Part shown: positions 14,601-63,561 of the stretch, one piece after another
Layout: every line of letters begins with the position of its first letter
Position numbering within the stretch: position 1 is the stretch's first letter
From: Rhyzopertha dominica
Taxonomy: Eukaryota > Arthropoda > Insecta > Coleoptera > Bostrichidae
Length of the DNA stretch: 64,000 nucleotides
Assembly: GCA_025024175.1 (NCBI GenBank)
Contig: QCXZ01000137.1
Coordinates: 66,774,680 to 66,838,679, forward strand
Direction of reading: 5' to 3'
Notes under the pieces: generated by a model
Databases searched by the model: none
What the model saw: only the letters and a program-made list of their open reading frames with translations
What the model was told of the DNA's origin: nothing
Made by a program: the position numbers and the translations under genes

Positions 14601-17223
14601 GCAAGACGGTTTCGTCAATGCGGGCAATGTGTCACATTTAAGAGTTCTTTCGTCATTTATTTAATGTTCTAGAATGTTCTATGATATTCTCGAAACATCA
14701 ATTTTCGACATTTCCTCCACGAGACGATTACGGCAATGTGCCACACTTGGGAGTTCTTACGTCTTCCGTCGAACTTTCTAGAATGTCAAACCGTCGATTT
14801 TCGACATCTCCACCTTGATATAGTAACGGCAATATGTCACACACCTGGGGTTCTTTAGTTTGCTGCTGAATTTCCCAGAATGCTCTAGAACGTTCCATGT
14901 TATTCTCGAAACGTCGATTTTCGACGTCTCTCGAACGAGACGATTATGGTAATGTGCCACACTTCGGAGTTCTTTCGCCTACTGAAGAATTTTCCAGAAT
15001 GTTCTATAACTTTCTCTCGAAACTCCGATTTTCGACATCTCCACATCGAGACAATTAAAGCAATGTGCTACACTTTACGTCGGTTGCAGAAACGTTATTG
15101 AAATTTGAATTGAGTTTACCGCAGTTGTTCCTATAGCAACACCAATAAAAACACCGGATTCATGGCCTTAGAGGTTCTTTCGCCTGCTGATGCATTTTCT
15201 ACAATTTTGGTTTGAAGGCTTCCGTGGTTGTTGGGCGGTTACATGTTGTTTTCCGGGCTGGTTGCCACGTTGCTTGTTTGGTCTTGATTTTTGACACTCT
15301 TGTCGGTGTCTACTTGTAAGGAAGAAACCGGCATGAGTGTCGAAACGTAAAAACCAAACAAGCAACGTGAGAAGCAACTCGGAAAACAACATGTCAATTT
15401 TCCAGAATGATCTATGGCTGCTTCGAAACGTCGATTTTTGATATGTCCACCACGAGACTTACGGCAATGCGCCACACTTGGGAGTTCTTAATTCTTCTAT
15501 CGAATTCTACAAAGTTCTACGATTTTTTCTCAACTTTGGTTTTTGACATCTCTATCGCAAGACGCTTTGAGTAATGTCCCACATAATGTTCTATGAATTT
15601 CTCGAAACGTTGATTTTCGATTTTTCTATCGCTAGACAGTTTCGGCAATGTGGTACACTAGCGAGATGGTTTCAGCAAACTGCAACACGTGAGGATTCTT
15701 TCTCCTTCTATTGAATCTTCCAGTATATTCTGTTACATTCTCGAAACGCCAAATATACCACTTCCTCACAATGAACAATTTTCCAGACGATTTTCAATTT
15801 TTCATCGCGAAACCGTTTCGGCATTGTGCCACGGTAAAGGCTTCTCTACTCTAGTTCTTCCTCGGAACATCGATTTTTGAGTTCCGCACCGGGAAGCGGT
15901 TTCTGCAAACTGACGTAATTAATAATTATCTTGTGTTCTATTAAATCCTTTAAATTTCATTTCCGCTGAAAATTTGGTAAAGAAACTCTCCTCCAGTTAA
16001 AATCTTCCTACTATCGAAGTAGATATCTACTTTGGTACTTAGTACCCTATGTATACAGAGACCTGTTTTACCGCTACATGGCACTTTTTAAGGTAATCCG
16101 GCAAAAAATGCACCCCAAAACTAGAGGAAAGACGTGTTCACGTCAAAAAAAGTCGTATGGTGACAAATCCAAAGAGTAAGTCGGCTGCCGCAGCAGTGCA
16201 GCGCTTTTTGAAGTCCAAAAATTGTCACGCGACGCACGATTAAATGGCGCATTGTCATTGGTAATGGATTTATGTGTTCGAGTACTTCGAATAGAATTCT
16301 TGATTTACATCTGCCTATAGGTGGCACAAACTCCCTAAGCTCTAACATTTCTAGTATTCCATTCAAAGAGATAAATCATCGTCACCGAACGCCTGAATCA
16401 CTTTATCAAACGTTTCTTCTGAGACTCGCCGAGTCTCAGGTAAAACTCGATTGCTTATAATATCGAGCAACAATAATTGTTGCTAGATAACATGCCATTC
16501 CATTTTCATGGCATGCAGCATAGCACTGACATTGACATGAATAGCAACGCAGCTTGATAAATAATGATTGTGGAGGGTAGCACACACATCTTATCAGTAC
16601 AGGTTCTTACTGTTACCACACGAGCAGCAAAAAATCAGTCTGTCTCATTGCTTAAAAATTAGACCTCGTGCTCACACTATACTGCGCCTAAAATTCCAAC
16701 TTCCAACGGGAGAACTTGCGAAAACCGCATTCTGCACAAAATCTTCACCATCCACTTAGAATTTAAATGCCCATGCTCCCGTGACCTCTTTCAGGTGCGG
16801 AGCGCCGATGTGGGCGTCAGCAGCCTGTACGAGGTCATCTCCGAGGCGGATCTGGCCTTCAGTCCGGACAGCAAAGTCGAGGCCGTCACCGTCTTCCAGG
16901 GCAGGATACGCGAAGAAGTGGTGTACGGTATTTGCATGCCGGTGCCCGGGTTCAGCCTGCTGTTCGTCCTGGTGGCCGTTTCGGCGGTCGTGTCGGCGCT
17001 GGTGGCCGGCTCGTTGCTCTATCGCTACCAGCTCCAGAAGGAGCACATGGCCGAGAGGCAGAACAGCTCGGTGGTGGCGGCCACTCCGGTCACCACCTGG
17101 ATGGGGATGCGCCTGCTGAGGACGAGGAGCGGCGCCTGCACGTCCAACGGCTCGGCGGACGGGTCCGCGGTTTGTAGTTCGCCCGTAAACGGGAAGACTG
17201 ACGAGTCCCGCTCGCGGGAATAG
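2557..17223 (+). CDS. ZP-domain transmembrane cuticle protein, 3' part of gene (five exons, 5' end outside window)
   Basis: Spliced exons 2557-2679, 4882-5096, 7572-7907, 11857-12036 and 16795-17223 form one open frame ending in TAG at 17221. All junctions are GT-AG with consistent phase. The product has the ZP-C half with its cysteines (DCW, KSC, FGC, KCK, then CRHGCLDHC), an acidic linker, a furin-type site RRKR, a membrane span and a short tail. In insects such proteins are apical membrane or extracellular-matrix organisers that shape cuticle: the ZP part polymerises after cleavage ahead of the membrane anchor. The family is that of Miniature/Dusky/Dusky-like and relatives, but I cannot assign the orthologue. 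Introns are 2.2-4.8 kb and full of dead transposons. It converges on a second ZP gene ending at 24204. The ZP-N half and signal peptide are to the left of the window. Confidence 0.88.
2680..4881 (+). other. Intron of ZP gene 1
   Basis: AT-rich DNA with one n at 2967. The only recognisable content is the C-terminal scrap of a transposase on the minus strand at 4028-4250. I see no repeat structure in the rest. Confidence 0.6.
4028..4250 (-). mobile_element. C-terminal fragment of a Tc1/mariner-like transposase
   Basis: The minus-strand frame reads KWSQLKHAFRKSNN, then LIGKKMAKINDHLWKKC and ENGYLSK. This pattern (W-x2-LK near the start, an amphipathic stretch, then a DxLWKKC-type segment) is typical of the region after the last catalytic residue in insect IS630/Tc1-type transposases. 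The frame runs 72 codons before a stop. No upstream catalytic part was seen, so this is a remnant inside an intron. Confidence 0.45.
4882..5096 (+). CDS. ZP gene 1, exon b: core of ZP-C subdomain
   Basis: The acceptor is acttttta|g ending at 4881 and the donor is aag|gtgagt at 5097. The exon encodes EFDMRVKSCLASDG, IQLSDEFGCVLRPKMISRF and YAFFHAFKFPDALSVHIKC, which lines up residue by residue with the paralogue's ZP-C (FDMLVRNCMAHDG, YAHFQAFKFPDS). Three ZP-C cysteines are present. The first two bases complete the glycine codon begun at 2679, confirming the splice. The intron that splits it from exon a is absent from the paralogue on the minus strand. Confidence 0.92.
5097..7571 (+). other. 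Intron of ZP gene 1
   Basis: Holds the Helitron-like copy at 5160-6110. The remaining ~1.4 kb is AT-rich, and I see no genes or repeats in it. Confidence 0.6.
5160..6110 (+). mobile_element. Helitron-like non-autonomous element, copy 1 (diverged)
   Basis: Shares a series of blocks with copies at 41300-42102 and 50497-50934: a start with repeated (c)tga(c/t)tga steps and atcgccgagcg, then aaacacccacta, an aagggggtgaa block, and repeated phrases about 'ttgggctttt.attagaaa'. The terminal cgcggg...agctag end present in the other two copies is not clear here, so the right boundary is approximate. It lies 60 bp downstream of a gene 1 donor site. No coding capacity. Confidence 0.5.
7572..7907 (+). 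CDS. ZP gene 1, exon c: last ZP cysteines and acidic linker
   Basis: The acceptor is tttttcag ending at 7571 and the donor is aag|gtacgc at 7908. There are 112 codons in phase 0. It starts VEICRHGCLDHCQLQ, the terminal ZP cysteine cluster. About 95 residues of hydrophilic linker follow, rich in D/E, P, N and Q (for example PDPIESPEDAVYDD and QQQHSDEELE) and with no recognisable domain. It is markedly GC-richer than its flanks. The antisense frame at 7596-7832 is a shadow of this exon. Confidence 0.88.
9240..10230 (-). mobile_element. Decayed Penelope-like retroelement (reverse transcriptase)
   Basis: On the minus strand about 10068-10012 reads RYKYVDDTFVISPYG, the YxDD catalytic box in the form typical of Penelope-like elements. 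It continues FLNHMNIKNIKFTMALESN and LSFLDI, then further along HTLHRKSTHPYMSHL. This is the characteristic order of the Penelope RT palm and the following segment, where intact copies read FTME...LPFLDV...YRKPTHT. Stops and frameshifts are frequent, so the copy is dead. The GIY-YIG part is not recognisable. It is inserted in an intron of ZP gene 1, antisense to it. Confidence 0.7.
11090..11520. repeat. Diverged inverted repeat, possible MITE-like element
   Basis: Near 11092-11138 the sequence runs acgcgaactg, gaaaggcggc, ttttgtagaagccac. Near 11492-11531 the reverse complement of the same string occurs (ttgcttctaccag, ggccgcctttt, acgcgct). The arms are about 40 bp and imperfect, about 350 bp apart. 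This suggests terminal repeats of a small DNA element, but no target duplication was evident. Confidence 0.3.
11542..11780 (-). other. Unrecognised open frame in intron, antisense to ZP gene 1
   Basis: A minus-strand frame of about 75 codons with a balanced composition ends in TGA at 11542. It contains YVGVGVGKHNCTLAFTIG, then RRKETVIAIAEARGEG and MDREMCEMYLCDQLE. I do not recognise a family. It is GC-richer than the surrounding intron and abuts the inverted repeat at 11090-11520, so a transposon-derived exon is the simplest guess. No convincing splice acceptor or start codon was seen upstream. Confidence 0.2.
11857..12036 (+). CDS. ZP gene 1, exon d: linker with furin-type cleavage site
   Basis: The acceptor is tatttccag ending at 11856 and the donor is cgcaag|gtaact at 12037. 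It has exactly 60 codons in phase 0. The exon encodes a proline-rich linker ending in RTERRKRSVVVSDRK. RRKR fits the R-X-K/R-R proprotein-convertase consensus, which in ZP proteins lies between the ZP domain and the membrane anchor and allows release of the ectodomain. It is too short to stand out as an open frame and was found by frame continuity with exons c and e. Confidence 0.82.
12763..13598 (+). repeat. ~830-bp interspersed repeat with hairpin end, copy 1
   Basis: Closely matches 48264-49121 along its entire length. The left end is taattacttccacatccaa followed by a near-complementary gatgggaagt, so the first 30 bp can fold into a hairpin. The right end repeats the inverted form ttggatgtggaagtattga and stops at about gcagcggttt. 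Flanks differ between the copies outside these limits, which defines the element. Both copies happen to have a ~60-codon open frame near the left end, but there is no recognisable protein. Class unknown. Confidence 0.7.
14215..14640 (-). mobile_element. Mariner-like element, 3' end with C-terminal transposase
   Basis: On the minus strand the frame reads FLFLRVKQVVKGTHFESV, then VTRALEALSAEVFQKCYEQW and RKRWHHL. This is the mariner C-terminus, where intact copies read K-x-GxRF...VTRAL...FQECFxKWKxRW. On the plus strand the element begins near 14218 with tacgaggtctggcaattaag, the form of mariner terminal repeat common in insects. The upstream catalytic part is unreadable here, and the element runs into the satellite array. 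Dead copy. Confidence 0.65.
14624..15910 (+). repeat. Diverged ~100-120 bp tandem (satellite-like) array
   Basis: A recurrent unit reads approximately gcaatgtgccacacttggga, then a gttctttcgcctactgaa block, then ttccagaatgttcta, ctcgaaacgtcgattttcga and an acatctccacc.cgagacgat block. The 'gcaatgtg-cacact' anchor recurs near 14624, 14731, 14828, 14949, 15059, 15463, 15571, 15644 and 15820. Spacings are about 97-121 bp where uninterrupted. Units differ by roughly 20-35%, with many small indels, so the array is old. It is interrupted at about 15210-15395 by a foldback insert. Confidence 0.75.
15241..15394. repeat. Foldback (inverted repeat) insertion inside the satellite array
   Basis: The left arm 15241-15300 starts acatgttgttttccggg. 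The right arm 15335-15394 is its imperfect reverse complement and ends ggaaaacaacatgt. The arms are about 60 bp, roughly four fifths identical, with a loop of about 34 bp. Array sequence continues on both sides, which shows it was inserted. The loop/right-arm boundary contains ggcatgagtgtcgaaacgt, superficially like a hammerhead core but lacking it. Confidence 0.65.
16121..16400 (-). mobile_element. Mariner-like transposase catalytic fragment
   Basis: The minus-strand reading gives NDNAPFNRASRDNF, then LLRQPTYSLDLSPYDFF. This matches the mariner catalytic block, which in intact copies reads HDNARPH... and HPPYSPDLAP-DFF: the second catalytic Asp and the final D. Stops and frameshifts interrupt it, so it is inactive. 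It may be the upstream half of the same insertion as the C-terminal fragment at 14215-14640, split by the satellite array, but the frame after DFF does not continue and separate insertions are equally likely. Confidence 0.6.
16795..17223 (+). CDS. ZP gene 1, terminal exon e: hydrophobic patch, membrane span and tail
   Basis: The acceptor is cctctttcag ending at 16794 and the stop TAG is at 17221. There are 142 codons. It opens with VRSADVGVSSLYEVISEADL, equivalent to VIRVVSTGDLTF in the paralogue. A membrane span follows at about residues 50-73 (GFSLLFVLVAVSAVVSALV), then a tail of about 70 residues that is basic near the membrane and Ser/Gly-rich later. The exon is strongly GC-rich, which produces several long false frames, including a 204-codon antisense one. 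Its tail is much longer than the ~30-residue tail of the paralogue. Confidence 0.88.
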   Translation: MRSADVGVSSLYEVISEADLAFSPDSKVEAVTVFQGRIREEVVYGICMPVPGFSLLFVLVAVSAVVSALVAGSLLYRYQLQKEHMAERQNSSVVAATPVTTWMGMRLLRTRSGACTSNGSADGSAVCSSPVNGKTDESRSRE

Positions 17224-23470: not shown

Positions 23471-23547
23471 AAAACCATTAATTTCGTAGCTATAACTTTA
23501 TCCGCAATCTTCAGAACAGTATATGACAGTTGACAGTGTACTGTGCC

Positions 23548-24732: not shown

Positions 24733-27700
24733 CTGTAATATATTTTGAGTCATGTAGTACTTCTACTTTTGTTATCGAACAACTGTATTAAATATGAGGG
24801 GTAAAGGAATAAGCATATGCAGGTTTTCTATAAATGATTTATGCAACGCGGGCGGCGTTGATTTCTGAATTCTTTTGCCGCCTTTTCGTAACTGCTGCCA
24901 AGCTACAATATGCACGGCGATAGTAGTTAAAGGTTGCAGATCAATGTCACACCACATGTCCCAAGTGTGAGCTTTCTGCAACCTTAAAGTCAATTATCCC
25001 ACAAAACACTACAGAATATGTTGAAAATACACACTCCCAGGCGTTTCCTCATATTTAGATATATCAAATAATTAAAAAATTGACAGATGACAAATATACG
25101 TCACTTTCCCGAGAGGCGGTAAATTGATTTATCGATAATTTCCATAAGCTCCCAGGATACATGAATAATTTATAGAAACCCTGTATATTACATTTAGACG
25201 AAAAATGAACCAAACTCGGAAAGGGTTTACTCGGATAAGACTACTGTGTACGCTCCCAAAGGCTATATTTTAATGAGTTTGTGTTGTTAATGGTATCTGA
25301 AAAAATAACGTTGTCTTTAACATATGTATTTTCTTGCATGTTATCCTGAGAACACTACTTTGGAAAAAAATATATTTTATAACCGACTTCATAACAATTC
25401 CAAATATGCATAAACGCTGCAGCGCCCCTGGTGAGCCATAGTAAGAATGACCTACTAACCAACTACTGCTCTTAAGCATGATATCTGGCGCGTAGAACTC
25501 TATGCTGTGGTGTAATTAGTGATGTTAATAACCATTCAGTTCTGTATTCACAAGAATATAGAGGAATACTATACTTGGAATACATCAACCTCTGATTACT
25601 ACACCAGTGTCGTAGAAATAAGTAAATAATATGGTAATTAAAAGTTACCATGTTTAGATACATATGGAGAAGAAGTTTATAACCAGAGATATTCTATTTA
25701 TAAGCCTTCTGAGATAAGGTTCCAACCCACGAACTGATAGGAATTATAATTATAACTTGGAATAATCAGAGTAATATAAAATAGTTTTTTTGTGATGGCT
25801 AACTATAAACTCTATAAAGAAAGCTTTATGCAAAACGTTCTTGTTCCACCGTTATTTGTGCACTGCGACTTCAAACCAATATCGCTCAAAGAAAGAGAGC
25901 GGACAGCCAGAGTAGTTTCTAATTAAACTCATTTACAATATTTACCTCAGCGGTGAAGACAGTAAACAACCTTCACAAGTTTGTCCTTTTTTGGACGAAG
26001 TAGTACTCTTCTGACAAGAATTGTATTATACATAGTATCCTCATATGAGTTTAGTTGCTAGGTACGTGGCCGTTCAAGGGATTAAAAAAAATATCTGTTC
26101 AAGGGGGCTAAGAAAAAATATATACGTAATATTTATAAGAAGTCAGAGTATCTATAAAGTCTGTTAACTTTTTAGCTCCAACTTGTTGGAATATAAAGCT
26201 CTCGGATACCAGGTATAAATTTAGGAAGCAACCAGTTTGGCAACATATATGTATGTCGAAACCTGTTGAATAATTTTTAATCACCGTGTTTTATAGATTT
26301 TTAGTAAAACATATTAATGCTGTTGAAACTACTTAATTAGAAATCGGGCGTACGAGGCAAGGTGAAAAGTTTATAGAGTTTATGGCTTAATATAAATTAT
26401 TATACATTTGTTTCGAAATATCCCGTTTTTTCTAATTAAAATCATTTGAGAGACATATTTTTAATTGCTTATAACAAAAGCACTTATACCTATATCTTGT
26501 CAGAAGAAGTGTTTCTTTGTTAGAAAAATAGCCTTATAAAAGTTGTTCACTGTTTCAAATATTGTATTTTCGGTCTCGTTCAGTCCCTCATACCACTCGG
26601 TAATTATAAGGTATTGTGTGTTGTTAGTAGCAATAATGCATTTAACAGTAAGGCGATAAACTTCAAAAAACAATTCAGCAAACAACTGTGAAAAACTTCA
26701 TCTTACGCACTCAAAAAGTTAGACGAATTGCATATGTTATTAAAATTGTAGATATATGGAGGGCTAGTAAATTACTAAATAACATTTCCGATAAATACGG
26801 CCTAAACACATATTATTCACGGAATACTAGAAATGGTATTGTTTCAATGAGTTGAAGCTAAGCTATATGTTACTAAGGAAATTTAAAAGACATCCATTAG
26901 AAGACAAATTTGGAATATTTCACTTGGATAACTGTATGAATCTCAAAAGCCATTTAGAATCTATTCTCTTTTAATGCTAAAATCCAGAACATACTCAATC
27001 AGTATGATGTTAAAATGCTGCAAGATATATATTTACTCCGATCGAGGGTTGTTTCAGGAAAGTTACTAAATAATTAAACATTACAGTACCTGCAAATCTG
27101 AATGGTGCACTGGAAATGTACCTCCATAGAATCAGGGAATTTGAAAGCTTGGAAATGGGCGTAAGAAAGAACGGAAGCGCTGGCTCCAAAGTTCTTGATC
27201 TTAGTAAACCGCGACATTAACTTCGGTCTTGTCACGCAACCTTTCTGGTCGACCAGCTGTATGGGCGCACGCTTGCCGTCATGTGCCATGCAATTCCGCA
27301 CGAGCATATCGAATTTGGAGTCGTCGTCTTTAATCGCCAGCACCATCGTCATAGTTTGGCCTATCTTGACTAGTCCAGACACTTCCGAAGCCCACGGGCC
27401 CCTTCCGACTTGAATCTGCATCCAGCAACCAACATTATCTCCGGCAAAGTCGGTTCTGACCACATCAAGCATGTCTACAGGGAAGGGTCGAAAGGTGACG
27501 GATTTTTCGTACTGATCATGCCAGGTACATCTCAGTTTCCTGGCTTGATCCCACACTTCCTGCACCTGGGGATCGTACTGGATCACAATGATATTTTCGA
27601 AGTACGTCCCTGAACCAGATTCCGCTCCATATCCATACAACCCATTCTCCGTATTACCGGACGTACCGCACTGGTGAATACCTATTTCAAATGTAGCTGA

Positions 27701-28225
27701 CTGACGTCCTAAACCTGCCGGTAGGTGGACGCAGTGCACGTTACTGTAATGCCCTTTGCTGAAGATGATACCGAAGAAGGCCTTGTCGAAACCTATGTAA
27801 ACCTTCATGGAATTCTTCTCGCACTTCACGTCCAACGATATTATTTTAGGCATTTCAGGGGCGGGCGCTGGCCAAATATCGCCCCCTGACCCATACTTGT
27901 CCATGGCTTGCTTAGGAGGTGGAGGTGGTGGACCATTATACACCACGTTGTGCTCGAAATTTGGTTTGTTTTGTCCTCCGAAGTTCTTGTGTGGGAAGTG
28001 ACCTCCGTTTGCTCTGTTTGGCATGTTGTGGGGATTTCCTCTTGGAGGAGAGTTGAACGCCAGCTTTTTCGGTGGTCCCTCTTGTTCGATTGATTCCATC
28101 GCCATCTGGTCCGAATCTGAGTCGGTGTCTTCCCTATCCTTCGGTGATGCATGGTCGTTTCGGTCGTCGGAACTTGACACTGCTTCTACTACATCTATTT
28201 CCTCCGTGCTCGTTAAGACTGCCAG
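24204..28225 (-). CDS. dyl: ZP-domain cuticle protein of the Dusky-like/Dusky/Miniature group (first exon missing)
   Basis: Two exons, 28225-27090 and 24732-24204, splice in phase 2 to encode ~553 residues: an acidic, then proline/asparagine-rich N-region, a complete ZP domain, a furin site (RRAKR), a membrane span and a ~30-residue tail. Conserved ZP text includes EVWDQARKLRCTWHDQYEK, VTFRPFPVDMLDVV, CWMQIQVGRGPWASEVSG and YAHFQAFKFPDSMEVHF, ending CRYQCPDQC across the splice. In flies this family sits in the apical membrane and shapes cuticle of wing cells, bristles and trichomes. I judge Dusky-like the best match from recall, with Dusky or Miniature as alternatives. The large exon opens in phase 0 with LAVLTSTEE, so the signal peptide is on an upstream exon that I could not find in 28.2-64 kb. 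It converges on a second ZP gene. Confidence 0.9.
24733..27089 (-). other. Intron of ZP gene 2
   Basis: 2.36 kb, phase 2. It contains the inverted copy of a dispersed short repeat at about 24815-24910 and a further fragment near 25165. The remainder is AT-rich with nothing recognisable. Confidence 0.7.
24815..24910. repeat. Dispersed short repeat, inverted copy in intron of ZP gene 2
   Basis: Reads tttctataaatgatttatg, caacg.gggcggcgttg, tttctgaattc, ttgccgcctttt, gtaactgctgccaagctac. This is the reverse complement of 23560-23640 with about 85-90% agreement by eye. Together the two copies form an inverted pair about 1.3 kb apart. Confidence 0.6.
27090..28225 (-). CDS. dyl: ZP gene 2, large exon: N-region and complete ZP domain
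   Basis: The acceptor is catttcag at 28233-28226 and the donor is CAG|gtactg at 27089. There are 378 codons plus 2 bases. Residues 1-45 are Ser/Asp/Glu-rich and residues ~45-125 Pro/Asn/Gly-rich, with a PPPPPP run. The ZP domain covers ~126-378. The in-frame GTG at 28180 is not a start, because the frame is open to the acceptor. Several overlapping frames here are shadows. Confidence 0.93.
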
Positions 28226-28839
28226 CTGAAATGTGAAAAAAAAATGTTAGAAATGGCAGAAAATTGGGTTTAGTAATCGTTCCATATTTCGTTCTATTTT
28301 GCAACAAATCTATGGATTAGAACAAACCATAAAATATAGCAGAATATATAATGATCCAGAGAGAATTGGTCACAAGTTCATAAGATTTGAAATTATCACC
28401 CACTACCCACAATTACTCGTATATCAAACTTACTGATTCGATTGCGTTTCTTGATGAAACACTTTATGTAAATAAATCAAAAGCCATTGGCTATTTTACA
28501 GACTTAAGTAATAATTTACAGAACTTTAATTTTTCTACTCTCTGCTAAATTGGAGTCGTAAGTGAACAAAAGAAGTGGCAAGTTCTACACGGAGAACCTA
28601 TACATTACTCAGAGCAGTTCAAATGATTTAAAATCTGCTTCGTCATTAGTGGCAGGTTCATTATTATCTTAAGCTTTTTTTCTAATTTCCAGTTGTTTAG
28701 AAAGAGCTATTTTTCTAACCATTACACATTACTGCATTTATTAGTATTTTTTGCTATTCTTCAACAACGTAACGTAACCGCTGTAATTAACAGATAAGAA
28801 AATAAGAAGTATGCTGGACTCAGAGCGTTACTGGAAGCT
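28226..28839. other. Upstream intron of ZP gene 2, no features seen
   Basis: AT-rich DNA directly upstream of the ZP exon on its strand. I looked for an ATG followed by a hydrophobic leader ending in phase 0 at a donor site and found none that is convincing. Confidence 0.5.
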
Positions 28840-29860
28840 ACTCTGAGACCCAACAGCAAGGACTAAGCGCTTATCAATGAAATCCTCCAAGAACTCTACC
28901 ATACCTAAAGAAGAACAACGGCGACTACTACCTTCTATCACGAGATCCTCAAGATTCTATAGACTGACGAAAATATACAAGACGGGAGCAATAGGCAGCA
29001 CTCGAAAATCACCAACATATGAGTTATCATAAGACATCGCCAGCGAACTACAGCATTACGTGGCTTCAATAGACACTTTTCGGAAGAATTCAGAACACTT
29101 CGTAGCCGTTCTACAACGTCGTACCGCAAGGTAAAAGGATTTAGCGATAGGTTTCGATGTTGAATACCTATTTACGAATGTTATGCTAGAGGAGAACAAA
29201 TCATTTGTTCCGCGAAGATTACCAGAGAATTTAGATAACCTAGTAAGACTATGTCTGACTAGAATATATTTCTTGTGGAATGGAGAATACTACGAGCAGA
29301 GGTTTGGGATTATTCGCCATCACCTCTCATCACCAACAACTTTATGGAAGCTGCAGACAAAAAGCTATGTTGACGACGCTTTCGTTATTTGGCTACAGGG
29401 TTTGGGCGCACAGCAAGGCTTCAAAGAACACCTCAAAGGACAACAAGCAACTTCAAAGGTGGGGACAGCGAAGGTTGGAAGCCTACCTTTCTTGGACGTT
29501 CTGGTAAAATGAAGCAGCAGTGGCAAACTAGGGCACAAGGAGACACTCGATCTATAGCTACAGGCCTCGTCACACCACTATCCAAGACAGAAGAGATCTG
29601 TGATCACTACTTTCCTACGCCAAGCAGAGAAAATCAGCGATACAGAAAGCACTAAGAACTAAGCACACTAAGAAATCCAACACATGGTTACAACCTCAAA
29701 GAAGAGTGGATACAGAGAGGATATGAGTAAAACAAGAGGATTTATAACAACTTAAATCGAGATGATGGATGGCATTCGCACATGACCAGTTATGAACGTG
29801 ACAACGAATATGTATATAAGAGGGAACCATGAGAATACTAGTCAGAGACCTTCAGAAGCA
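28840..29860 (+). mobile_element. Decayed Penelope-like retroelement, plus-strand copy
   Basis: The plus strand reads KIYKTGA, SPTYELS, then FDVEYLFTNV, LCLTRIYFLWNGEYYEQRFG, then KSYVDDAFVIWLQG (YVDD at about 29367-29378), GFKEHLKG and LPFLDVLV. This is the Penelope RT order: PKIHKxGxPxRPI, SFDVxSLFTxVP, YFxxNGxYYEQxxG, YVDDxFVIW, LPFLDVLV. Stops between blocks and missing segments (the MGSPLSP block is absent) show it is dead. Divergence from the other two Penelope remnants suggests separate insertions. Confidence 0.75.
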
Positions 29861-35509: not shown

Positions 35510-38500
35510 TTAGATATCTAAAACACTTATTTTGTCAATGTGACAGTGCAGTACTTCATGGTAGGTAATTGTCATCAGACACTGACAAAAATATGTTTCT
35601 TCTATTTAACTTTATTTTCCAAAGGAGACGGGCAAGCTCTAGATCAAAACGAATAATTTTCTGCGGCATAGTTTCAACATTTTCTGGGCAAATTTTGTCC
35701 TTCATCTACCTCCAAAGCAATTAGTGGAAGGGATTTTGTTTGGTGACCTTTTTGAACAAACGACTCATCTTCTAATTTATTTGTTAGGATAATGCTAAAT
35801 AAGCAAGTTTCTTACTTGCCTTCTCAAGTTAAAAGATGTGTCACCATACAGCACCCTCATTTACTGTATGAAATATAATAAAACTTCTTCCAGTGTTAGA
35901 AGTTCATATTTTTCAATAAAACGCAAATAATAAGCCGCCGTCAACGTTACTCTTTTTTAACGGTTCATGTATCAATAACTTCACTGACCAACAATCTATT
36001 TTGGAAATGAACCCCCCAGTTACTGGTGGTCTTTAAAGCTAGCTTTGTCAGTTACCAAAATAATTTGCGGACAAAGTCTTCGATTTTTCGTATAGTGACG
36101 AAACTATATCTCATCTTGGTGCTTAGTTTGTGAGATTCAAAGGTTGCACAGATAGGAGATGGTCCTTCATATTTTTATGCCAGCTATATTAACTCTGTAG
36201 GAGATTAGTAGAAAGAGAGGCATGTTTTTTCTTGAACAAGTCTTGGTTGAATGGGACGTTCAGCTGTCGATGATATTCTTGAACCGTCGTTTACGCGTTT
36301 CACCAAAAATTTGTACATCTGGCTTTTAGCATATATCGGTTCCTGGTTTATTCTTAAATAATAATAAAGTTCCAAGTTGTAATGTCATTAACATAAGTTT
36401 CGAGATGTATGCAGGCCTTTTTCAGTCGCTCCAATCTTGCCTGTTGATGGAGGTTTTTGCTTGCTTGTTAATCATATTACGATAAATAGCTTATTTCAAC
36501 TTATTAAAACTTTATTATCATCTTGCTTTCACCAACTAATTAAGTAATATTTAGTTCACGAAAAGCGATAATAGTTTTACTCACAGACACCGTAGTCTTA
36601 CAAAGTTTACAAATTAACATTAACATAACATATCTAAAAACTTCTTTCATTTTCTATGTGTGTAGCTTAGTGACGATTGACTTCGGAACTATATTCGTTT
36701 TTGAATGTAAAATGGCCACTAGAAACCTTCAAGGCTATATCCTTCTACATCTTTTATCCTCTCAGATAGTTGCTCATCAAGCTCGTTCCATACAAAGCAC
36801 CTACTTAAACATTTTTTTTTGTATTTCTGAGCTTTCCTAATTCTCATTTCAATTCTTCTTTCACCTATTCATCAGAACTGTTTATGTAATAAAACGGTTA
36901 CCTATGGGAAGCCATTTCCAGCGACATCGCTCACTCAATTAGTTATACCAAGTACAACAACATAGGCTTTCGCGAATATAATAACTTAAATTAGCGAAAT
37001 TCTAAACGATTTTAATGTAGCAAACTGAGATTTGTGTTAGAAATAGAAAAAAGCAACACCAAAGGACTGCCTTGCAATGATGAAAAGGCATACGACATTC
37101 TTAAGAAATCCGAATAAAAAAATTATAATGTCTCTATTGAAAGTTAACCATAAAGTCACATTACATACACCACTAATCAAATTATCAAAGAACTGTACCG
37201 CTTACAACATAACATTGAACAAAATTATTCGCTGCACTTTCATACATCCACATATACATAATTTTTAAGCTCCATTTTAAGGAAATATAATTTAGTCATC
37301 TTGCAATGATCATTGAAATGAATAGCGATTCCCGAACAATGACCAACGCAATGTTTAATTTTTAACTAATATGAAAAATGAGAGTATTTTTCTACCATCA
37401 GTAACTTTTTAGTGTTTTAGACCTCAAAAGAGGCACATTAGTGGGCTAAACCTTGTTTCTTGTTTGGCAAGAAGTTGGGTAGTCATATTTAACTCATTAC
37501 TACAGATACGTGGCATTGTCTTTTGCACTTCGTAAATAGTGTAACCGTCCTCTCCTTTAGAAAAGAAAGCAGAAACAGAAAAGCAAGTAATGGCTAAATA
37601 TCGACATTTAGCGAACGAATTTTAAATCAGGAATTTTCAAAATTTTGCGGTTATAAAAAACTTATTTAAAAAAATCCATGGTGGCTGTACCTTCAATATA
37701 CCCGTAAGTTTCACGTGGACAAATCTATCTTAATACGTGGTAGAGGAGTTAGTTAACTTTGAGCTCTAGTTAATATAACAAGAATTAATCCTTTTTCTCC
37801 TTTTTCGCTGGACTGTTCCAATGCGTTCATTGGATCTAGGTTTCTGTACTTACAGACCGTAACAATATATACGTAGTTCGTAAAGCTACCGTTAGATGAT
37901 ATTACCGATTTTCCCAAAATGACCGGGCAGTCTGCCCCAAAGTGCGATGTAAGGTTTGTTTACAAGCTTATACGCTTGTACCATTGCTCAATTAATTTTT
38001 AAACACAGTTTAAATAATAGTTCTAAAAGACATTACCACATCTTGGCGCCATTTCATCGATGATGTATTGTTTGTTATCTTTGCGATCTCTGTAGCATGA
38101 CCCTATAGTAAGTTCTCGAGACTTCTAGCTTTAAATGAAATTCTTTTTTTTATTGAGTCAGTCGGCAATTCTTCATCTTTTCCAATACGATGTTTGTTGG
38201 CAGTTGCTTATTCGTGAATAATAAGAAGCATTGTCTAAAATGATAACATTGGCTTCATTTAAACATGGTAGTCTCCTTTTATTTTAACTGTAATTACACA
38301 CAGCTTAAATAATAACTCTTTGCAATAAAAAGAAACCGATCATTTAGCACTGTTCGTCAAACCCTATGTATGTCAATCAAAACGATACCTCTAAAAATCG
38401 AAGCACTAAGTGGACAATATTTCGAAATACAAACAACAAGTAAACAAATGTTTTCACTTCGAACTATAAAAACGAAGAGTTACGCATACAATTATATCCA

Positions 38501-43649: not shown

Positions 43650-45000
43650 CACATCGCCCTTAGGAAACTTGTTGGAATATGAGAATACAATATGAGAATC
43701 CTCCTTCAAATAATTGTTTACGGTGTCTAGGTATGATGAGCGTATTCCTTTTCCTTAAGTTTAAGTTATGAATGTGAGTTCGAAATGTAATTTTTCGGTA
43801 GAGGTACGAAGTTAATTTAGATATTAATATTTTATAGAAAAAGCAACCCATATGTAAGCTTTGGCGATTACGACTATTAACCCATAGCAGCTAACCAAAC
43901 TTATCTGAAATACGCTTGTTTTTGCGAATTCCAAGTATTAACCGGATACAGGAGTTTTGTACTTGAAATGCGTAAGCTCTACTTATAAACACAGAAACAT
44001 GTTTCTGAAACCGCAATTTGCTATCTATTATCACCTCCAGATGTTTTGCATGGTTCATTTTTTGCATGTCATTATCAATTTTGAACTGTAGATTATTTTT
44101 TGAAAAAATTTACATGAATGGCATTGGCAAATAATACTGCAGAAGATTTACTGAGATAAATGTTAACCTTGTGAATGCTGGATATGTTGAGCAGTTTATT
44201 CAGATCAGCGTTAATTGAGTCAATGGCTTTAGGAAGATCTGAATGTCGAAAAGAGCAATATAACTGCGCGGCATCACCATATAAGTGATATCTACAATGA
44301 CTTATTATCAAATGGAAGCGGAAGTATAAAGGGTATACAATAAAGGACCAAGTATGCTTCCCTGTGACACACCTGATTTTATAAAGAAGTTCTGTATCTC
44401 CAGCAAGGACTCGTTGGAATCAATCACTCTGAAAATAATGTGAGAATGTACACGCATGACCGTCAAAACCGAGAAAATGTAGAATACTTATCAACATTTC
44501 TTAATCCAATTTATCGAATACTTTCGAATAATCAAGCAATATGAGTGCAGTTATTTGGTCAGAATCCCAAGCTCGAATCAGTGGATAATACCTTTAAATT
44601 TTTTAATTGGCATAGTCTTATCCACATTCTAATTCTCGCATACACATCGCCTACGTTGGCGTATATAAGGGAAGCCAGATCTATGCCGTTTACTGTATTG
44701 TCTGCAATGGGACTATAGACGTGCTAATTAAGTTTTATAAGTCAAAATAGCTGTACACAGAACACAGATTGTTTTGACGCAGGCGACATGACATATACAT
44801 TTTTTTGTTGTTGACAACTATGGTGTTGGTGGAAACCAAACTGCCTGCAAGGAAGTTTACTTAAGCTCACCATATTGTTTAATTTGACATTCCATTAATC
44901 TTTCAAAAATTTTTGAAAATGGTAATGATCTGATAACATATCTACTTATCTATCTAAGATAACAAAATTCATCAGGTTGTTTTATTTTTGGCAAATATTA
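43650..45000 (-). mobile_element. Decayed Jockey-type LINE, reverse transcriptase to C-terminus
   Basis: In order on the minus strand: KFLKD and LPCRQFGFHQHHS, then LLDFSKVFDKLD, GVSQGSILGPLLYTLY, HLYGDAAQLYCSFRHSDL (YADD box changed to YGDA), LSKSSAVLFAN, MNHAKHLEVIIDSKLRFQKH, and finally TLIIPRHRKQLFEGGFSY. This is the full RT order of Jockey/CR1-like LINEs with stops between blocks. The catalytic box is altered, so it is inactive. Confidence 0.75.
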
Positions 45001-45259
45001 TCTTCGCACCATTACCTAATCAGTGAAATATTGAGTTCTTATAGACCATATGCATTAGATTTGATAGATATGATAATATTCGAACACAATTAAACCGTAC
45101 CTAACGTTAAAACTAAAACGGATTTGTGGAGCTCTTAAGAAAAGATTTTCTCTTAACCCATATTGATGGGTCTTGCTATTATACATTCTGGAATTTGAGA
45201 AATTTGACTCGTCGGTCCAGAAAACAGAACGAACGCGTTTTATATCATGACGACAGAAG

Positions 45260-45270
45260 TTAAAATGTTA
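45260..45270. repeat. Left target-site duplication of outer retrozyme copy
   Basis: ttaaaatgtta here is repeated exactly at 45795-45805, immediately outside the two ends of the plus-oriented hammerhead element. An 11-bp duplication indicates insertion as one unit, probably by LINE-type priming. Confidence 0.75.
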
Positions 45271-45469
45271 ATAAGAATTTAGATGGCAATGCCATCTGTC
45301 AGCATTACTCTGACATGATGACAAAGCCACCTAGCTGCCATTATGGGATCTACTTCCTAAAAGACGTGACCTGTAGCCTGACAAAGTGGCATACCCCTGC
45401 ATACTTCAATTTGACAGCAGGCCCCCACGGCACTTTTTCCGAGCGGGCAAGAACCGACATACATTAAAA

Positions 45470-45650
45470 TGCATATCTATGCTGTGCTGTCTGCACCGCA
45501 ACCAATTGCAGATAGATCTATTTCACTATCATTATAGCTCATCACTTCCTGTAGGAAGTAGATCCCATAATTGCAGCTAGGTGGCTTTGTCATCACGTCA
45601 ATATAATGCTGACAGATGGCATTGCCATCTAAATTTTTACTTTCATCATA
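45470..45650 (-). mobile_element. Inner hammerhead element copy, inverted and internally deleted
   Basis: On the minus strand it runs from aaatttagatggcaatgcc through the body to acttcctacagg, then jumps directly to the tgatgag of the ribozyme and on to the 3' end at atgcatttt. Compared with 63252-63551, about 120 bp are missing: the second half of the body and the 5' strand of ribozyme stem I. It sits inside the plus-oriented copy. No clear target duplication was found around it, so nested insertion or local rearrangement both remain possible. Confidence 0.7.
45484..45547 (-). ncRNA. Broken hammerhead ribozyme
   Basis: The minus strand keeps tgatga, stem II (gctat/atagt, now closed by a G-T pair), GAAA, the atagatctat stem III and the downstream stem I strand. 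The deletion junction has removed the upstream stem I strand and changed the essential first core C to G. It is predicted inactive. Confidence 0.75.
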
Positions 45651-45688
45651 CCAAGCCTTTGGTATATAGGCAAAACCAGTTCTGTGCC

Positions 45689-45778
45689 GTGCTCTCTGCA
45701 CTAGACCTAAACTGCACTGATGAGCTATAATCATAGCGAAATAGATCTATCTGCAGTTGGTTGGAATGCAGACAGCAC
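45689..45778 (+). ncRNA. Type I hammerhead ribozyme, intact core
   Basis: A self-cleaving RNA motif. Core CTGATGA is at 45717-45723. Stem II is GCTAT/ATAGC (45724-45737) with an AATC loop. GAAA is at 45738-45741. Stem III is the palindrome ATAGATCTAT (45741-45750: 3 bp plus a GATC loop). C17 is at 45751. Stem I pairs AACTGCA (45710-45716) with TGCAGTT (45752-45758) perfectly. Beyond an internal loop of 9 and 8 nt, a second 12-bp helix (45689-45700 with 45767-45778) has one mismatch. Every invariant hammerhead core base is present. Cleavage is predicted between 45751 and 45752. The very short stem III is characteristic of animal repeat-borne hammerheads, which may act as dimers. Confidence 0.9.
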
Positions 45779-45794
45779 AGCATAGACATGCATT

Positions 45795-45805
45795 TTAAAA
45801 TGTTA
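45795..45805. repeat. Right target-site duplication of outer retrozyme copy
   Basis: Exact repeat of the ttaaaatgtta found at 45260-45270. It directly follows the element's end gacatgcatt. Confidence 0.75.
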
Positions 45806-47450
45806 TTGCCACTTTAACTAATTATACCTATAAGGGATAAATTTATAACTTTTTAGAAACCTGTAAACACGTTTTGCACACTAATTACTATTTCAAGATA
45901 TACTTTTCCGCATGGGCGGAACTTACAAGCTTGAACAACCGACGTTTTTATTTTACAGTTATTTGACAACTAAAATTATTATTATTTTCCTAAGTCTTCT
46001 ATACAGATGAAATTTTAGTTCTGCGATTCATCGTTTATATTAATGCCATTAAATAATCAACCTTTTGTTGTCTTTACAGCTATCTTAAAATTTGAGTATG
46101 GTGGGTAAGGCTAATGTTTAAAAATCATAATATTGACATTATTTTTTACTCTAGAAGAAAACTTTGTGGTTTTATCTAAAGCTCTTCCAGGAATAGGTAT
46201 TCCATAATAGTAAGCGTTATAAAAACTACTAGTTTGCTAATTTCAACAGTTTTGAATTNTTGATAATAATAATAATAATTAAGGCACTTAATATGGATCA
46301 GCTTGAATGTTGGTTATTTCGTTTCGAAGCTATTTAGGGTAACAATTACTGATCTTTATTAAAAAAATATATATATACAAAATTTTTTTATCGTTTTACA
46401 GGATTGTAAATATATAGAAGTATACAGACCTGATTTTAAGGCAAATAAACAGCTCGCCTAAAGCAGGCATCTGTTACGCAACGTATATCGGATGTGAACA
46501 CATTTGGTGATGGTGAGGAAACGTAACGATCTTGAAGACCAATATAACGTCGGATGACCGCGCCGCTTAACAGAACACCGACATCGTGACATGACCTACA
46601 GCCGACGAGTCAATCAAACTGTTCATGACACATCCTGTTCGTATTCTCGATTCGAAATGTCGCGTGGAATTTTAAAAGTACTGCACTAAAAAATAGAGCA
46701 ACTCTTGTTTTATTTATGCCAGTTGACTGCGATGAATTAGCGGGAATGGGCATCGGCGATAAATATCGTCCATGTTATCCAAACTTTGGAATTGTGCGCA
46801 TATAGAATGACGTTCCTACCTTGTTCAACAATTTTGCCTGAGAATTGTCAGCGGGGAGAATGTTCGGCGTCAATTATGCGCATGATCTATTCATGGTTCT
46901 ATCCGAAAACTCCTCGAAGGTTAAGAAGTTTGTTAAAGATTGTAAAAAGGTACGTGTTATATACTGATGTTGTGTCCGCTTCTTTGGAAAGGGGTATTCG
47001 TAAGGTACTTCCTTCGAGATAAAAAGGACCCCTATGATTTTATTGTCACATACTCTAACTATCCGTTGTATTAAACGAAATGCGGAAGAGTGCATCACCT
47101 GGACCAGCTGAGACAAATCCAACTCTATAAAGAAGTCTGTTGGCGTATTTTTCATTCATCCGTAAATTTGACATGGTCAGGTCTATCTTAAATATGTGTA
47201 GAGGAGTAGTTAACTTTATGCTAAAATGAATATGAGAAAAATTAATCATTCAAAGTATTTTTATTTCACTTCCTAAANCCACCGCTAGATAACGCATCCC
47301 TATTTTAACAAAATGACTGGTCAGTCGGCAACATACACTTACAGACTGTATATACTGACCTATGTTGCAGTTCGTAAATCCACCGCTAAATAACTCATTA
47401 GCGAATTTTACAAAATATTTGCCGAGTTTTAGGTGCATTTTGGCCAGTAT
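45806..47450. other. No supported genes; short (TAA)n run
   Basis: AT-rich DNA with a (TAA)n microsatellite at about 46262-46280. 46450-46680 is GC-richer, with broken frames that vaguely resemble a transposase helix-turn-helix but not enough to call. The rest is unrecognised. Confidence 0.4.
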
Positions 47451-63241: not shown

Positions 63242-63251
63242 TAGTATTCAT
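63242..63251. repeat. Target-site duplication of retrozyme copy, left
   Basis: tagtattcat here is repeated exactly at 63552-63561, giving a 10-bp direct repeat that tightly frames the 300-bp element. Confidence 0.75.
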
Positions 63252-63551
63252 GGAATAAAATGCATGTCTATTCTGTGCTGTCTGCACCGCAACCAACTGC
63301 AGATAGATCTATTTCGCTATCATTATAGCTCATCAGTGCAGTTTAGGTGTAGTGCAGACAGCACGGCATAGAACTGGTTTTGCAAAAGTGCCGTGGGAGC
63401 CTTTTGTCAAATTGAAGTATGCAGTTGCATGCCAATTTGTCAGGCTACAGGTCACATCCTTTAGGAAGTAGTACCCGTTAAGGCAGCTAGGTGGCTTTGT
63501 CATCATGTCAGTGTAATGCTGACAGATGGCATTGGCATTTAAATTCTTACT
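63252..63551 (-). mobile_element. Hammerhead-ribozyme retroelement (retrozyme/SINE-like), complete 300-bp copy
   Basis: Bounded by a 10-bp target duplication. On the minus strand it starts aagtaagaatttaaatgcca, has ~185 bp of non-coding body including the atgccatctgtcagcat block, then the 90-nt hammerhead, then a short tail ending atgcattttattcc. Only one ribozyme is present, so it is a monomer insert, not a tandem. Body, ribozyme and tail occur in the same order as in the outer copy at 45271-45794. I saw no LINE-like tail and no clear Pol III boxes. It probably moves by target-primed reverse transcription supplied in trans; the enzyme source is unknown. Confidence 0.8.
63275..63364 (-). ncRNA. 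Type I hammerhead ribozyme, intact core
   Basis: Minus strand. Core CTGATGA is at 63336-63330. Stem II is GCTAT/ATAGC with an AATG loop (63329-63316). GAAA is at 63315-63312. Stem III is ATAGATCTAT (63312-63303). C17 is at 63302. Stem I is AACTGCA (63343-63337) with TGCAGTT (63301-63295). Beyond an internal loop, a perfect 13-bp helix pairs GTGCTGTCTGCAC (63364-63352) with GTGCAGACAGCAC (63287-63275). All invariant residues are present and cleavage is predicted between 63302 and 63301. The only core-region difference from the 45.7-kb ribozyme is one base in the stem II loop, which is neutral to folding. Confidence 0.92.
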
Positions 63552-63561
63552 TAGTATTCAT
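63552..63561. repeat. Target-site duplication of retrozyme copy, right
   Basis: Exact repeat of the tagtattcat found at 63242-63251. Confidence 0.75.

Follow-up and report, generated by a model that had tools for sequence, protein, structure and literature searches.

A complete type I hammerhead ribozyme motif within a probable non-autonomous retroelement of 294 bp in a beetle genome

The locus described here raises two linked questions: whether the short motif that it carries is a real hammerhead ribozyme motif, and what kind of element has brought it to its present place. We will consider them over the whole stretch of DNA that was analysed, which is 64 kb long and will be called the window. 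A first-pass annotation had read from the letters a complete type I core with a C at the cleavage position, a stem I of 7 bp, a stem II of 5 bp and a distal stem I helix, with a new 5' end predicted at 45752. All of these are found in the sequence. The parts of the motif are listed below for the two copies of the element, A and B, in which it is complete.

45710..45758, + strand: hammerhead core of copy A, complete type I by the strict descriptor
45710-45716/45752-45758, + strand: stem I of copy A, 7 bp
45717-45723, + strand: CTGATGA of copy A
45724-45728/45733-45737, + strand: stem II of copy A, 5 bp
45738-45740, + strand: GAA of copy A
45741-45743/45748-45750, + strand: stem III of copy A, 3 bp closing a GATC loop
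45751, + strand: C17 of copy A, with predicted cleavage at 45751|45752
45683..45786, + strand: extended stem I of copy A, which encloses the core and has a distal helix past an internal loop
63295..63343, - strand: hammerhead core of copy B, C17 at 63302

The stretch 45710-45758 is a real and complete type I hammerhead motif, and we regard this as confirmed. Its letters are AACTGCA-CTGATGA-GCTAT(AATC)ATAGC-GAA-ATA(GATC)TAT-C-TGCAGTT, and C17 falls at 45751, so that the predicted 5' end does lie at 45752. Copies A and B both hold CUGAUGA, GAAA and H17 together with stems I, II and III in the type I order, while the third copy, C, does not. The strict descriptor (stem I of at least 5 pairs, stem II of at least 4, stem III of at least 3, CTGATGA, GAAA, U16.1 and H17) has one match on the + strand of the window, at 45717-45751, and one on the - strand, at 63336-63302. 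It has none in 1000 dinucleotide-shuffled whole windows searched on both strands. This last result makes it exceedingly improbable that the arrangement arose by chance (as had been argued from the start) and has no function, even though the window holds further matches to the loose core and the Rfam scores stay below gathering. The loose core alone is indeed not rare, with 4 matches against 0.97 expected (2 of 100 shuffles reach 4), and the looser patterns together give 4 matches in the window against 0.79 expected. The two extra sites that they pick up, at 23481-23514 and 36846-36875 (both on the - strand), fail the strict descriptor. For the enclosing stretch 45683-45786 the folding energy is -39.6 kcal/mol, while its shuffles average -25.88 (z -3.72), and none of 200 shuffles folds as well.

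The check proposed for the motif was a covariance model, Hammerhead_1, and its outcome is a divided one. Hammerhead_1 is absent from the Rfam listing; at A, and likewise at B, the listing omits without a name one overlapping match from the same clan that scored lower. No Rfam family matches the window at its gathering score. The best model is RF02275 Hammerhead_HH9, which copy A matches at 45700-45772 with 28.8 bits and an E-value of 3.3e-5 for the 501 bases searched or 0.0042 for the whole window, both significant. Copy B scores 25.1 bits, which is significant locally (4.2e-4 for 401 bases) but not across the window (0.066), and both copies remain under the gathering score of 52. Both match all 77 model positions. 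In copy A, stem I is interrupted by an internal loop at the place where the HH9 model has one, a candidate for the loop I - loop II tertiary contacts of type I hammerheads.

The first-pass annotation had also placed the motif in an interspersed repeat of an insect. The repeat proves to be an element of 294 bp with shared ends, whose copies and flanking direct repeats are laid out as follows.

45260..45270, + strand: 5' direct repeat of copy A, TTAAAATGTTA, 1 base before the common 5' end
45272..45437, + strand: left part of copy A (element positions 1-166), 89.8% identical to copy B
45438..45669, no strand assigned: insert of 232 bp in copy A, made of copy C and flanks of 27 and 30 nt
45465..45639, - strand: copy C, inverted within A and carrying an internal deletion
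45670..45797, + strand: right part of copy A with the hammerhead (element positions 167-294), 93.75% identical to copy B
45795..45805, + strand: 3' direct repeat of copy A, TTAAAATGTTA, overlapping the last 3 bases of the element
63242..63251, - strand: 3' direct repeat of copy B, ATGAATACTA, with 4 extra bases (TTCC) past the common 3' end
63256..63549, - strand: copy B, the uninterrupted element of 294 bp
63552..63561, - strand: 5' direct repeat of copy B, ATGAATACTA, 2 bases (AG) before the common 5' end

With the insert left out of A, its alignment with B is gapless along all 294 positions, of which 25 differ. The hammerhead occupies element positions 207-255 and leaves 46 nt of the element 3' of the cleavage site. 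The direct repeats measure 11 bp at A and 10 bp at B; as 3 of the 11 bases at A coincide with the 3' end of the element at the other repeat, the duplication there is one of 8-11 bp. When 50-nt stretches were drawn from the window at random in 50,000 pairs, the two had a 10-mer in common in 183 cases and an 11-mer in 54. The target-site duplications of A and B are of variable length, as in a target-primed retroelement; neither direct repeats of copy C nor a duplication at the ends of the 232-bp insert were found. We infer that the ragged ends and variable duplications of A and B are the expected trace of target-primed retrotransposition.

From these observations (a complete motif in two of the three copies, shared ends, and flanking direct repeats at two of the three) we consider it quite probable that the motif is a type I hammerhead ribozyme lying inside a non-autonomous beetle retroelement of 294 bp, either a non-LTR retrozyme or SINE-like. 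What had been annotated did not include where the element ends, its flanking direct repeats, the inverted copy nested in A or the monomeric state of the copies in the window. The support for this family consists of three copies, all of them in one 64-kb window. A DNA transposon of the MITE kind that carries the hammerhead by accident would also leave direct repeats of 10-11 bp, since Mutator-type elements make duplications of 9-11 bp. We hold this to be very unlikely, because the outermost 40 nt at either end of copy B, compared by eye, have no long terminal inverted repeat and only a few end bases that agree, and because 1-4 bases stand between the common ends and the repeats at three of the four ends, as in retrotransposition.

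The retroelement reading leaves the exact kind of element to be considered. Read in all six frames, copy B offers at most 71 codons without a stop (a criterion of length only), and no frame of 120 aa is found at copies A or B. The GC content is 0.435 for copy B and 0.452 for copy A without its insert. A tRNA-derived SINE was considered and rejected, as the combination of a tRNA-like head and pol III boxes is lacking: a search of the window for tRNAs with ARAGORN under the bacterial code comes back empty, and a consensus scan of copy B gives no B box and one A-box-like match, which lies inside the ribozyme. Tandem copies were looked for as well. A blastn of the copies within the window returns A, B and C only, and there is no tandem array at 44000-47000. 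The 3' end of the element taken alone has 5 near matches in the window, 3 of which are the known copies, against 3.93 expected. On the + strand, 16758-16776 is a stretch of 19 nt that matches element positions 3-21 with one mismatch (E 0.002 for a 60-nt query); it is the best of several weak matches to the element ends and is either chance or a small remnant. Exact patterns for two core forms and one 5' block of the element have no matches in viral contigs or in bacterial and archaeal genomes. A separate observation, made by eye, concerns CACGGCAC and GTGCCGTG (ATGCCGTG in B), which lie directly upstream of the ribozyme within 45426-45690 minus the insert and could form a hairpin in competition with the distal stem I, a possible switch.

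The claim that a second genomic copy preserves the motif holds for copy B, but it was incomplete, as a third copy, broken and inverted, is nested in the first at 45639-45465. The deletion in this copy C took the 5' side of stem I together with C3, the hammerhead can no longer form, and 45475-45549 folds without one (z 0.26). Together A and C make inverted repeats of 105 and 81 nt. When the full composite transcript is folded, C pairs with the left half of A, and the hammerhead of A is as free as it is alone; in a transcript that starts inside the insert (45440), the hammerhead is buried in a duplex with copy C, at a cost of 44.9 kcal/mol. The masking of A by C as a general rule was therefore dropped, only the transcript starting at 45440 being masked. 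The flanks of copy C, 45438-45464 and 45640-45669, match no part of the element, and within the second is ATACCAA/TTGGTAT, a palindrome. A different mobile element, to which both flanks would belong, may have brought C in.

Stem III had been described as a palindrome. The palindrome, AUAGAUCUAU (10 nt), is there, in all three copies, but its 10 nt cannot all pair within one molecule, where the stem is limited to 3 bp closed by the GATC loop. In all nine single-molecule folds the pairing probability of stem III is at most 0.001, and in eight of them forcing the hammerhead costs 3.6 kcal/mol, the ninth being the fold that starts in the insert, with the cost given above. With two molecules, the minimum-energy structure is a double hammerhead with a shared stem III of 10 bp, at -31.0 kcal/mol for A and -31.4 for B, compared with -14.8 and -15.2 for two single hammerheads. 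These folds agree with the earlier remark that so short a stem III is of the form that often needs dimerisation. Tertiary contacts stabilise natural hammerheads, and as the folding model leaves them out, a single molecule may cleave as well. The best reading of the modelled energies is that the element would cleave mainly as a dimer.

Such a behaviour has precedents and counterexamples in the literature. For amphibian retrozymes, a weak helix III and dimeric cleavage are described in PMC7229834, and dimeric cleavage is suggested for the hammerheads of Penelope-like elements (PLEs) in PMC7761336. Both papers also report efficient cleavage of the monomer for most hammerheads of invertebrate retrozymes, an argument against dimers being required in the 294-bp element. 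A stricter proposal is that this is a solitary, fixed-end hammerhead retroelement that cuts only in trans, the RNAs of different genomic copies pairing through their palindromic stem III. We find this improbable; if true, it would make the cut depend on RNA concentration and turn it into a brake on copy number or a step that frees a 5'-OH, with no circles from tandem transcripts.

The weakness of stem III in the monomer also fits a relic, that is, a once-mobile hammerhead repeat whose ribozyme is now inactive or untranscribed. The 25 differences between A and B over 294 positions, the interruption of A and the loss of part of the core in C point the same way. Against it, neither A nor B, the two copies that retain the core, shows damage to it, and only 1 of the 25 differences falls in its 49 nt, in loop II, compared with 24 in the other 245 positions, a contrast that is not decisive (one-sided Fisher p 0.055, not significant at 0.05). 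We regard the relic as a possibility of some weight, though not as the likely state of the element, and it is compatible with the retroelement reading for its past.

How a retroelement of this kind might have moved can be sketched as follows. The RNA of the element would be made by read-through, or from an unrecognised promoter. Two such RNAs would pair through the palindromic stem III into the double hammerhead, which would cut after C17 and leave 46 nt of the element 3' of the cut. The enzyme of a partner retrotransposon, Penelope-like or a LINE element, might then copy the RNA of the element into a staggered cut of the target, by reverse transcription that always begins at the same place, 46 nt past the cleavage site. 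A fixed start and a staggered cut would together give fixed ends and duplications of about 8-11 bp. For ends to be fixed away from the cleavage site, the template would have to be a linear RNA that was not cut, or else a circle with an internal start of reverse transcription. As the copies are solitary, a single transcript could be cut once and could not release a unit-length RNA or a circle.

Nothing in the window is a certain candidate for the partner. A Penelope-like one is attractive for two reasons given in PMC11167929: PLE reverse transcription starts internally, away from the 3' end of the RNA and at a site with no homology to the target, and an anole Penelope-like element whose hammerhead has been mutated can still insert in vitro. 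A full PLE, with a gene for reverse transcriptase and GIY-YIG between pseudo-LTRs with hammerheads, was rejected for the element itself, 294 bp being too small for the gene. More doubtful than likely is the proposal that the element is a solitary pseudo-LTR or a non-autonomous derivative of a PLE, with a hammerhead of the PLE type. The internal start just mentioned would suit it, as would the form of PLE hammerheads, presented in PMC7761336 as minimal type I motifs without helix III or tertiary contacts. The open frame 29135-29512 carries FDVEYLFTNV, YVDDAFVIW and LPFLDVLV. We take these to be PLE reverse transcriptase motifs. Pfam, however, assigns the frame to no family, a protein search with it finds one protein, presumably the window's own, no strict-descriptor hammerhead lies near it, and the stop-free run of copy B is as short as given above. 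Look-ups of the frame among solved structures and in Pfam gave nothing usable. The surrounding stretch 28780-29860 on the + strand, with limits set by eye, is a possible decayed retrotransposon and the sole hint of a Penelope-like element in the window.

We return to the reading as a non-autonomous non-LTR retroelement, which can be set beside known systems. The non-LTR retrozymes of animals (PMC7229834, by Cervera and de la Pena 2020, with insects named in one sentence among other invertebrates) have the same type I hammerhead at about 300 bp, in units of about 170-400 nt without coding sequence and with a GC content under 45%. The 294 bp and the 71-codon longest run (judged by length only) agree with this, and the GC content, near 0.44, lies just below the limit in copy B and just above it in copy A. 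These retrozymes are tandem repeats, from dimers to long arrays, an arrangement that explains the formation of circles, whereas the three copies in the window are solitary and have common ends, with direct repeats at two of them. Solitary precedents exist, as minimal type I motifs are dispersed in animal genomes according to PMC7761336. PLE hammerheads (PMC7761336 and PMC11167929) are likewise of type I with a minimal stem III and may cut as dimers; the 294-bp element differs from them by its palindromic stem III of 10 nt and has no room for a reverse transcriptase gene.

Two further systems have features in common with the element. The pDo500 satellite of Dolichopoda cave crickets, as described in PMC2837043, is also an insect hammerhead repeat for which single and double forms were proposed, but it is a satellite array, and its double form keeps stem III within one strand and shares stems I and II, whereas the predicted double form of the 294-bp element would share stems I and III and keep stem II internal. 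The hammerhead repeats of Nematostella (PMC4918200) are flanked by LINE-like duplications of 15 bp, comparable to the flanking repeats seen here, and are named among repeats of which many are multimeric, unlike the solitary copies of the window. In the part of the retrozyme and PLE hammerhead literature that was surveyed, no beetle hammerhead retroelement is described. Our best reading is that of a new family of animal hammerhead-bearing non-LTR retroelements, whose less usual trait is that its copies in the window are solitary and have fixed ends, 46 nt past the cleavage site. Solitary copies flanked by duplications, with ends off the cleavage site, would offer a natural test of whether transposition needs the ribozyme, a point that the in vitro insertion of the anole mutants leaves open (PMC11167929).

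The window holds two other features. A ZP-domain gene at 27074-28246 (- strand) is an orthologue of insect dusky by its best named matches, and these, being beetles, bear out the attribution of the DNA to an insect and make a beetle the likely host. Among the best 120 of 1040 matches, the top named ones are Sitophilus, Rhynchophorus, Tribolium and Tenebrio at 82-83% identity, two matches at 90% stand above these named beetles, and other insects are lower. At 15241-15394 there is an inverted repeat with arms of 52 nt, 83% complementary and 50 nt apart; its Rfam matches, to two microRNA families, are weak and well below gathering, so that it is probably a fold-back element.
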